In this document: one piece after another, positions 41,765 to 45,005 of the stretch
How the letters are laid out: the number at the start of each line of letters is the position of its first letter
Position numbering within the stretch: the stretch's first letter is position 1
Origin: Taxawa tesnikishii (nom. ined.)
Lineage: Eukaryota; Ascomycota; Dothideomycetes; Dothideales
Reading direction: 5' to 3'
NCBI GenBank assembly: GCA_030247885.1
Contig: JAPDRO010000003.1
Coordinates: 1,550,001-1,614,000, forward strand
DNA length: 64,000 nucleotides
Made by a program: the position numbers and the translations under genes
The notes under the pieces: generated by a model
Told to the model about the DNA's origin: nothing
The model's database searches: none
The model's input: only the letters and a program-made list of their open reading frames with translations

Positions 41765-44700
41765 ATGTCTGGACTTGACCTTGCAGCCGGCATCATTGGC
41801 TGCGTGACGATCACTCTGCAGTCCGCCAAGGTAGTCTACACTACCATCTCGGAACTCAGGGATGCTCCCAAGACTGTTGAGGACCTGGGCTCAAGCGTGC
41901 AACGTCTGTACAGTGTCCTGGAGGTGATCCTGTCGCGTGAGGAAGAATGGCGTCGGACCACACGTTCGCCAGCTCTTGTCTCCCTCAGTCGGCTTCTGAA
42001 AGACTGTCAGGACTGCCTGAGCAGACTTCAATCGAAGATGGAGCCTTACAACAAACATTCGGGTCCGAAGAGCTTCCGTGGACGACTTAGAGCTTTCATG
42101 GACTCTGATAGTCTCAGCCGATACTCGCGCAAAGTGGGTGAACTGACGAGTTCTCTTAACTTGCAGTTGCACGTGTTCTCAAGCGACCAAACTGTACGAA
42201 TCCAACAAGGCCTCGATAAAAGTAGTTCAAACTCAGCGCAGAGTTTTCGGGACCTCGGTCAGGAAGTCACTTCCGGCCACAAACGCATATTGATGGCGAT
42301 CGAGAGATCAAATGAAGGCAAACCCACTTCCGCCATTCCGAAAGACGTGATGTTGATGCCCTTTCCCCGAGATCCTAAATTCGTCGGCCGCGAAGATACA
42401 CTGGCAGCCATCGATGCTGCTTTCGAAAACGCTCATACTTTGCACCGGGTGGCATTGTGCGGACTTGGTGGCGTTGGGTACGTCTATGTTCGCTGTCCGG
42501 TGGATACAATCTCGTGACGCAGGTGGTCCCAGCAGCCGATCGGCTGGCGGTTGAGAGCGCAGAACATCTTTCAGCGTGGAGCTTACCGCCGATCTTCCTC
42601 ACTGACAGTTGTGGTACTCAGGAAGTCACAAATCGCAATCGAGTACGCACACCGGCGCAGGGAAAGAACAAAGGAGTCCGTATTCTGGATCTACGCCAGT
42701 AGTCTGGCTCGCTTCACCGAAGGACTTGAAGCTTTAGCCGAACGACTAGAGCTACCCGGCTGGAATGAACCCAAGATTGACAAATTGTCTCTCGTGTCCA
42801 AATGGCTCTCGAAAGAAGAGAGCGGAGACTGGCTTCTCATACTGGACAACATCGACGATGTTTCGCTCGTCCTTGGCTCGCAAACTGGTGGCGCCTCATC
42901 GAACACTAGCACTTTTGTTATCCCTCAGTATCTTCCGCAAAGAGGCACAATACTCATCACGTCGAGATCGGAACTGGCTGCCGCAAATCTTGTGTACGAC
43001 AACGAAGATTGTTTGATCAAGGTGAAGCCAATGAGCGCGGAACTCTGCAAGACGTTGTTAAAGTCAAAGGTCGGATCGAAAAAGCTCTTCGATGCGGATG
43101 CTGATGACCAGATTATTGAACTCGTGCAGGAACTTGACTGTATTCCTCTGGCCGTGACCCAGGCCGCCGCGTATCTCTCTCGGAGTCGAACTACTGTTGC
43201 AGAGTATTTGTTAGACTTCCGCTCAGGTGAAAACGAGCAGACAGCTCTACTCTCCACGGTCTGGAACGACCTCCGTCGGGACCAGGACGCAGCTGGTGAT
43301 AGTGGAATGAACATGAATGCTATCATCAAAACATGGCAAACATCGTTTAATCAGATAAGAGCCCGCCATGGTGCCGCTGCCGATCTCCTATCCCGTATGA
43401 GCATGTTCAACCGGCAGAGTATCCATTGGTCGATCTGTTTCGACGACACCATAAGCGAGAGAGAAAAAGGGAGGTCATGGATATCCTCATCGGTTTCTCT
43501 TTTGTCAGAGAGGAGCAAGAATCGAACCAGTTTGGGATGCATCGTCTCGTGCAGGTGGCAACGAGAAGCTGGCTTCGTCTACAGGGGGACCTCGATAACT
43601 GGATCAACGATGCGACGAGTATGCTGGCCAACCGATACCCAAAGCTCCGTTGGTGGGCTGAAGTAAAAGCCGAGCACGAGTCAGTTTGTCGAACTCTGGA
43701 GCCGCACGTGCAAGCTTGCGTTCAGAACGGAGGTGTCATCGGCGAAAAGGCAGACACCCGACAAAGCGTTCATCTGCAAAGGCAGACTTTGTCTCAGATG
43801 GCTTGTTGGACATGGTGCAGATGAATTGTCCAATTCGAGATCAGCTCCAATGGGCCACACTGATGCATAGCCGCGGTGAATTTTTCTATACTCTTGGACA
43901 ATGGGCTCATGCCATGCTGATGTTGAGAGAGGCTTGGATGATTCGTCACGAAATGCTAGGCGAAAACGACGATGACACATTGACCAGTCTGGCCGAACTC
44001 GGTGTTGTGGCATGCGATGCTGGTCATCTCAAAGATGGCGTGGCCCGGCAGGAGCGTGCTTATCATGGCTTGGTTGGAAAGTACGGTCCCGATGCCAGAA
44101 TTGTACATGAGTGCGCTCACAATCTGGCGTGGAACTACACCGATGTAGGGCGCCACGAAGACGCTGAGACACTGGCATGGAGAGCCGTGGAGTGGTGCAG
44201 AAGTCACCTTGGACTAGCGGACCCCTTCACGACACAAACGGTCCGTACATTGTCAACTGTTTACGAGAAACAGCATCGCTCCCAAGACGCGGAGAAGCTA
44301 GTAAAAGAAGCCTTGGAAGCTGTACAAGACCAAGAATCAAGATGCACACTCAAGTTAACACTTGCCAACTCGTACTCATTCCAAGAGAGGAATGAGGAGG
44401 CCTGCGAGCTCTTCAATGAGGTGCTCAATCATCGAAAACAGACGCTTGGGCCACAACACCCGAAATCGTTGCAAACCGCTGCTCATCTAGCTGTAGCATA
44501 TTGGCATGACGGGCGGTTCGGTGAAGCTGAACAGCTGGAAGTTGAGCTGCTTCGTATCCAAGTGCAGGCCTTCGGCCCGGATGATCGGTTTACACTTAAT
44601 ACCATGTACGGCCTCGCATTGACGTACCATTCTCAAGGCCGACTTCAGGAAGCCGTCAACCTGCTGACTGAGGCTGTCACACTTGAGCAGAAGACTGGTC

Positions 44701-45005
44701 GAGAACCCGCGAATGAGTATTGCGCGTTGCTTCACGAGTGGCAACACGAACTGGACAGCAGCGAAGATCTCATCAGCGACAAATCATGTCAATAGCTGTA
44801 TGTTCCTCAATACAGACCTTTGCCGCGGGGATGGGAGATGCGGCTCACCTATAACTTCAGAGTCCATTTTGCCGACCACAGCACAAGAACGACTACATGG
44901 ATTGACCCAAGATTATCACCTCAAATGCATCATCAACACGATGACGTATTGGAAATCGGCGAGGACACAAATGCGAGCGAATCTATCGTTGCCGGCGCCC
45001 AGTAA
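41765..45005 (+). CDS. NLR/STAND protein: HeLo-like, NB-ARC, TPR, probable WW
   Basis: Fungal NLR, a class used in heterokaryon incompatibility and probably immunity. N-terminus ([20 protein letters not shown], about 1-210) matches the helical HeLo-like/Fungal_N domain of STAND proteins. NB-ARC follows: P-loop [17 protein letters not shown], split by a 144-bp intron (42478-42621) after GGVG; Walker [11 protein letters not shown]; sensor [13 protein letters not shown]-like [17 protein letters not shown]-like [15 protein letters not shown]. Then about seven TPR units ([33 protein letters not shown] and so on). The TPR frame ends at 44795, but the same frame 3 bases later encodes a WW domain ([29 protein letters not shown]). 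Splicing 44717-44815 would fuse it in phase. The frame slips by one base near 43424 and again near 43755; allowing for both, the full protein is 999 residues. Confidence 0.82.
44816..45005 (+). CDS. WW domain exon, probably the C-terminus of the NLR
   Basis: Reads [20 protein letters not shown] then [11 protein letters not shown]: both signature Trp of a WW domain, the GWE start and the final Pro. It is very close to Rsp5/NEDD4-type WW units that bind PPxY peptides. Preceded by a CTCAATACAG acceptor in the right phase. It has no nearby ATG giving a complete small gene except one at 44835 inside the domain. It is best read as a last exon of the NLR rather than a separate gene. Confidence 0.6.

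Follow-up and report, generated by a model that had tools for sequence, protein, structure and literature searches.

The window, i.e. the whole stretch of 64,000 nucleotides that was analysed (C23:1550001-1614000, from a genome of 29.4 Mb in 34 contigs), contains a genuine fungal NLR locus, ordinary in most respects, whose unusual feature is a WW module lying in frame behind its stop. In window coordinates, its features are:

41765..42477, + strand: exon 1, with the start codon, the PigL_N/HeLo-like domain (PF17111, 47.1 bits), a linker and the first half of the P-loop
42478..42621, + strand: intron 1, splitting the P-loop (donor 9.39 bits; CTGAC branch site 16 nt before the acceptor)
42622..43463, + strand: NB-ARC and start of the winged helix, first frame (PF00931 after splicing; 41% identity to a paralogue on contig C34)
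43464..43468, + strand: A run at or near the first frame change (change interval about 43430-43480, from codon-frame profile and alignment)
43471..43744, + strand: remainder of the winged helix with the MHRLVQ motif, second frame (DUF7779; MHRLVQ common to the C34 paralogue)
43745..43748, + strand: A run near the second frame change (change interval about 43714-43824; codon profile near 43750)
43788..44792, + strand: TPR array, third frame (TPR_10, TPR_12; modelled as a helical solenoid, best of five)
44712..44753, + strand: last predicted helix of the TPR solenoid (residues 309-322 of the AlphaFold2 model)
44717..44815, + strand: intron proposed by the earlier note, not supported (donor 1.93 bits, acceptor without branch site)
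44793..44795, + strand: UAG in frame, separating TPRs from WW (read from the sequence)
44820..44909, + strand: WW-type module of the Rsp5/NEDD4 class (PF00397, PDB matches, likeness to the genome's own HECT ligase)
44913..45005, + strand: C-terminal tail after the WW, including the stop (codon log-odds 4.61 over the 30 codons 44913-45002)

Divergent from the NLR, on the minus strand, lies a short-chain dehydrogenase ORF (window 40443-41639) that carries a Gln run and whose first in-frame ATGs, at 41609 and 41588, lie some 160 to 180 bases away from the start codon of the NLR.

All three elements of a tripartite fungal STAND NLR are present: an N-terminal effector-type domain, an NB-ARC with a P-loop, and a C-terminal repeat array. 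An earlier note on this DNA had named these same parts, and the profile searches bear it out. In the Pfam search, residues 4-140 of exon 1 match PF17111 (PigL_N, HeLo-like), in agreement with the helical N-terminus it had described. The NB-ARC domain is recovered as well (PF00931, 34.2 bits against a cut-off of 23.5), but only with 42478-42621 removed so that exons 1 and 2 are joined, which restores the P-loop; exon 2 on its own has no NB-ARC match in Pfam. A PF00931 profile search of the genome itself returned nothing at E 0.001, probably because that search works exon by exon. Within 42622-43463 further motifs are recognisable that we take to be the Walker B, sensor and GxP-type motifs. The part containing MHRLVQ matches DUF7779 at 20.5 and 20.9 bits, below the cut-off of 27, and the TPR frame (43662-44792) matches TPR_10 at 120.3 bits and TPR_12 at 118.3 bits. 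The segment 43788-45002 was also modelled with AlphaFold2 from the single sequence, with the UAG read as a residue. The best of the five models (mean pLDDT 62.1; 29.5 to 46.0 for the other four) forms a TPR solenoid in which the blocks between residues 81 and 320 have pLDDT values of 63 to 93; its residues 1-74 and the WW region lie below 50, the latter below 30 and in effect unmodelled, and the model is uninformative on the WW.

Splice sites were scored with an intron model built on 19 introns taken from some 175 kb of the same genome, the NLR locus excluded. Training required that a CTRAY branch site lie 12-21 nt away from the acceptor and that the donor exceed 3 bits, properties that are thus built into the model, and retained 19 of 39 acceptors; an earlier training that yielded 428 candidates was too permissive and was replaced by this stricter run. 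The donors of the training introns score 4.2 to 10.1 bits. In a LAM/VASt gene elsewhere in the window, a real-looking intron missed in training (34395-34310, minus strand), which is needed to join the GRAM and VASt frames, has a donor of 7.55 bits and CTGAC 15 nt before its acceptor. Under this model, the acceptor of intron 1, at 42621, is the only one with a CTRAY branch site in 42460-45010.

The earlier note had drawn one gene running from 41765 to 45005. No single open frame does so in the assembly: the NB-ARC, the MHRLVQ part and the TPRs occupy three different reading frames, and the two frame changes between them had been missed, so that, with the UAG, no translatable message passes through all of the NLR, TPR and WW parts. 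We compared this region with a paralogue (C34:1144222-1145835) that has a TPR array and, in the NB-ARC, 41% identity. By our own reading, an intron interrupts its P-loop at the corresponding position. It differs from the NLR locus in that its NB-ARC/TPR exon is open, a single frame of 604 amino acids running across both frame-change sites, and in that it has no listed WW: none was found there in the genome-wide WW search and none was seen in the open frames behind it. Frame-aware alignment to this paralogue places the first frame change at 43471; the second, at 43824, comes after about 80 bases that do not align. Introns at these two places were rejected, there being no acceptor with a branch site and the paralogue being open there. 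Two further changes within the TPRs, at 44327 and 44358, appeared with a weak penalty only, where the TPR frame is open, and were dropped. RIP was likewise rejected as the cause of the breaks, since its indices give no sign of it (TA/AT 0.52 and CA+TG/AC+GT 1.25 in the gene; 0.67 and 1.21 in the window).

Upstream of the NB-ARC of the C34 paralogue, the open frames have no Pfam match at E 0.01. Two of them (L021, C34:1141000-1148000; 5171-5985, minus strand) resemble a nucleoside phosphorylase domain by eye, and a frame change may lie between them. Searches for relatives in the viral contig collection returned none for either the TPR part or the NB-ARC part, and the bacterial/archaeal contig collection held none for the NB-ARC part. 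Two other TPR proteins of the genome, one at C32:210063 and one on C31, were set aside, neither having an NB-ARC match. The former (L049, ORF 2405-4564; 719 amino acids) combines TPRs with a PigL_N match of 24.2 bits, under the cut-off of 27.2.

Past the UAG, the TPR frame resumes for 69 codons that hold the WW, which begins 24 nt after the stop. The earlier note placed a WW in the TPR frame just past the stop, and this is right; by family profile the case is less clear, the match to PF00397 scoring 23.8 bits, under the Pfam cut-off of 26.9, and ranking 15th of the 18 WW matches found genome-wide at E up to 1. WW domains are marked by two Trp about 22 residues apart and a closing Pro. The module aligns without gaps to Rsp5-type WWs, keeping both Trp and the DP, and in a phmmer search against the PDB its best matches are NEDD4-family ligases, down to E 1.6e-30. 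Of the 17 other WW matches in the genome, 14 were compared with it and three at E >0.01 left out. The closest of the 14 is the third WW of an Rsp5-type ligase on C16 (identical at 23 of 34 residues and at 65 of 90 bases), a gene with three WWs and with a HECT domain at 215.7 bits in an adjoining frame, followed by a solo WW on C6 (21/34) and another WW of the C16 ligase (20/34). Of the residues expected to contact a group I ligand, the second Trp and the His are kept, and the strand-2 Tyr, which we take to be a ligand-contact position, is replaced by His; this position is Cys in the C6 WW and Tyr in all three WWs of the ligase. That the TPR-WW end would sense or recruit PPxY proteins, as the earlier note suggested, is a conjecture, and at this position the module departs from the ligase WWs. 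The module is thus of the same sequence class as the WWs of Rsp5/NEDD4 ligases and differs from those ligases in lacking a HECT, in its strand-2 His and in being single.

The coding character of this segment was assessed with a codon model trained on 45 of 49 long ORFs. Its score for the WW frame, 5.07, is reached by 12% of 339 off-frame (non-coding) open stretches, and 30% of 217 coding stretches score at or below it; the tail after the WW supplies 4.61 of the 5.07. The WW frame leans to coding, short of proof. It had been allowed in the earlier note that the WW segment might be made alone, from a start codon of its own, but the first ATG of the frame after the stop is at 44838, within the WW.

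Two observations touch on the WW from outside the locus. The solo Rsp5-like WW on C6 (L050, ORF 4078-4839, minus strand) lies near the end of its ORF, which has no other Pfam domain. The window also contains an arrestin/Bul1-like protein (16457-18157, minus strand; Arrestin_N 25.2 bits) with a PPEY motif; this is the neighbouring adaptor to which the earlier note had pointed. It does exist, about 24 kb from the NLR, and we found nothing connecting the two genes.

How, then, did a WW come to lie behind the TPRs? On balance, and by no means firmly, we favour a HeLo-like/NB-ARC/TPR NLR in whose lineage a C-terminal Rsp5-like WW was acquired that is now cut off by a stop; the present locus would most likely be a young pseudogene or a damaged allele. 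In NLRs of this architecture the repeats bind a ligand, oligomerisation follows, and the N-terminal helices act on membranes. The starting point would have been such a gene with one intron in its P-loop, to which an Rsp5-type WW was added as a further recognition element, connected to the TPRs through a short linker and sharing their frame. In the intact form, TPRs and WW would bind the ligand, the NB-ARC would exchange nucleotide and oligomerise, and the HeLo-like helices would act on membranes, with the WW as a second binding surface next to the TPRs. In the assembly an in-frame UAG parts the WW from the TPRs, with two frame changes upstream, and two of these three breaks could be assembly errors. 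The sequence shows the domains, their frames, the stop, the want of a credible splice and a paralogue that is open at both frame-change sites; the ancestral fusion, the damage in the organism and the function are the conditional parts of this account. No orthologue came up in the viral and bacterial/archaeal collections, so it is position and frame that speak for an ancestral fusion; as history, a joining of NLR-TPR and WW is likely, and the joined protein is putative. Other NLR stretches of this genome also show decay, subject to the same reservation over frame changes: compared with the C34 protein, an NB-ARC stretch at C2:270354-270833 (L055) has one frame change and one stop (155/223 identical) and another at C8:548338-548667 (L056) has two of each (84/263 identical).

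An unlikely alternative is that the gene is intact and expressed as one protein through NLR, TPRs and WW, with the frame changes being homopolymer errors of the assembly and the UAG either a base error or a codon that some ribosomes read through to give a minor, WW-extended form. How often such errors occur was gauged with HSP70 and Cpn60/CCT searches of the same genome, covering 17 genes (7 and 10, respectively) and 26.0 kb of matched sequence. In two of the 17, an HSP70-like gene (L058, C3:494400-494900) and a CCT-like gene (L057, C1:527900-528500), matches in different frames abut so closely that no intron would fit between them, and the sequence at each junction has a run of four A or of four G. 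The count has its bounds: other split matches were judged by their gap alone, except one on C7 that is a normal intron, and stops listed inside some of the chaperone matches were left out. The changes in the HSP70-like and CCT-like genes are likely assembly errors, and they call for caution with any claim about frame in this genome. Because of them, the two frame changes of the NLR may be assembly errors too, both lying at or near A runs in a locus that has 20 homopolymer runs of at least four in 3.2 kb; this is not the likelier reading. At the chaperone rate, the probability of at least two frame changes in 3.1 kb is 0.024 (Poisson), or 0.044 with the uncertainty of the rate included. Moreover, an intact gene needs three separate errors within those 3.1 kb, or two and readthrough, and one of the three, the UAG, is not of the homopolymer frame-change type. 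Readthrough is signalled by contexts such as UGA CUA and UAG CAR YYA, and the context of this stop is unlike them. On the other side, the NB-ARC motifs and the WW signature are kept and the tail after the WW appears coding; no more than three breaks across some 1000 codons, with the motifs retained, is also what a working gene could show.

We consider it distinctly improbable that the NLR ends naturally at 44795 and that the WW is an unrelated leftover, whether copied from an Rsp5-type WW or belonging as an exon to a different gene, that shares the frame by chance. A frame match by chance has a probability of one in three, the WW scores below the Pfam cut-off, and the C34 paralogue has no listed WW. 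An end in TPRs would also be unremarkable for a fungal NLR, TPR being named in a passage of PMC4986451 among the three common C-terminal repeat types. The surroundings of the WW argue the other way: no acceptor with a branch site feeds it, the position of its first ATG gives it no start codon of its own ahead of the domain, and the plus-strand frame behind it (46281-47276), the sole one scanned, has no Pfam match.

The splice with which the earlier note fused TPRs and WW, a 99-nt intron at 44717-44815, is probably wrong, and a gene linked in this way is very improbable: the intron does, by our own reading, run from GT to AG with a length that is a multiple of three and phases that fit, but it has a donor of 1.93 bits, below all 19 training introns and equalled or exceeded by 27% of the 7638 GTs that the window has on its two strands, it lacks a CTRAY branch site at its acceptor, it contains codon signal in the TPR frame that persists, weakly, as far as 44784, it would excise most of the last TPR helix predicted by AlphaFold2, and it does not account for the two upstream frame changes. 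With the gene broken in three places as assembled, the combined NLR-TPR-WW protein is probably not made as proposed.

Most of the locus has close parallels. The family PF17111 is termed HeLo-like in the relevant passage of PMC9815663, and the pairing of NB-ARC with TPR is, in that of PMC12258605, the usual one in fungal NLRs. With the NB-ARC/TPR NLRs that carry HeLo-like or sesB-like N-termini, as described in parts of PMC4986451 and PMC12258605, the locus shares a helical N-terminus, an NB-ARC and a TPR array; it differs from them in the additional in-frame WW segment behind the TPR stop and in a frame that is broken in the assembly. Extra C-terminal domains have a precedent. According to passages of PMC12258605, 378 of 4613 Sordariales NLRs contain 185 non-canonical domains, WW perhaps among them; zinc fingers, SPRY and kinases are the three most frequent, their position is mostly C-terminal, and the kinases (CHK2-like PKinase) are proposed to be integrated decoys. 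Like those NLRs, the present one has a domain resembling a host protein behind its repeats, here an Rsp5-type WW; unlike them, the domain is of a kind that those passages do not name, and its translation together with the NLR is putative. A literature search, whose scope excluded supplementary tables, found no WW in a fungal NLR: the term "WW domain" has no occurrence in the main texts of PMC9815663 and PMC12258605, nor has "PF00397" in PMC4986451. From plants, a paper on a peach TNL likens, in one passage, a post-LRR domain to a WW.

These parallels suggest a more specific version of the history, which we regard as a long shot: the NLR lineage would have taken up a WW resembling the third one of Rsp5, to serve as an integrated decoy through which a HeLo-like cell-death receptor could sense mycoviral or other proteins that dock on Rsp5, and the UAG would mark either a recent loss of that sensor or the site of a low-level readthrough extension. 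The idea is drawn by analogy from the decoy kinases of PMC12258605 together with an antiviral activity of Rsp5 WWs, since passages of PMC4127529 report binding of tombusvirus replication proteins by yeast Rsp5 and assign the activity against this RNA virus to its WW part. An integrated decoy would be translated together with its NLR, and here the UAG at 44793-44795 intervenes with no credible splice around it.

Together, these results show how much a domain fusion read from raw sequence depends on checks of splicing, frame and assembly, which at this locus brought out a weak splice, two doubtful frame changes and one stop. Most fungal NLRs have, to our knowledge, no known ligand; if the decoy reading were true, an NLR carrying a copy of a host-ligase WW would point straight at a candidate class of ligand.
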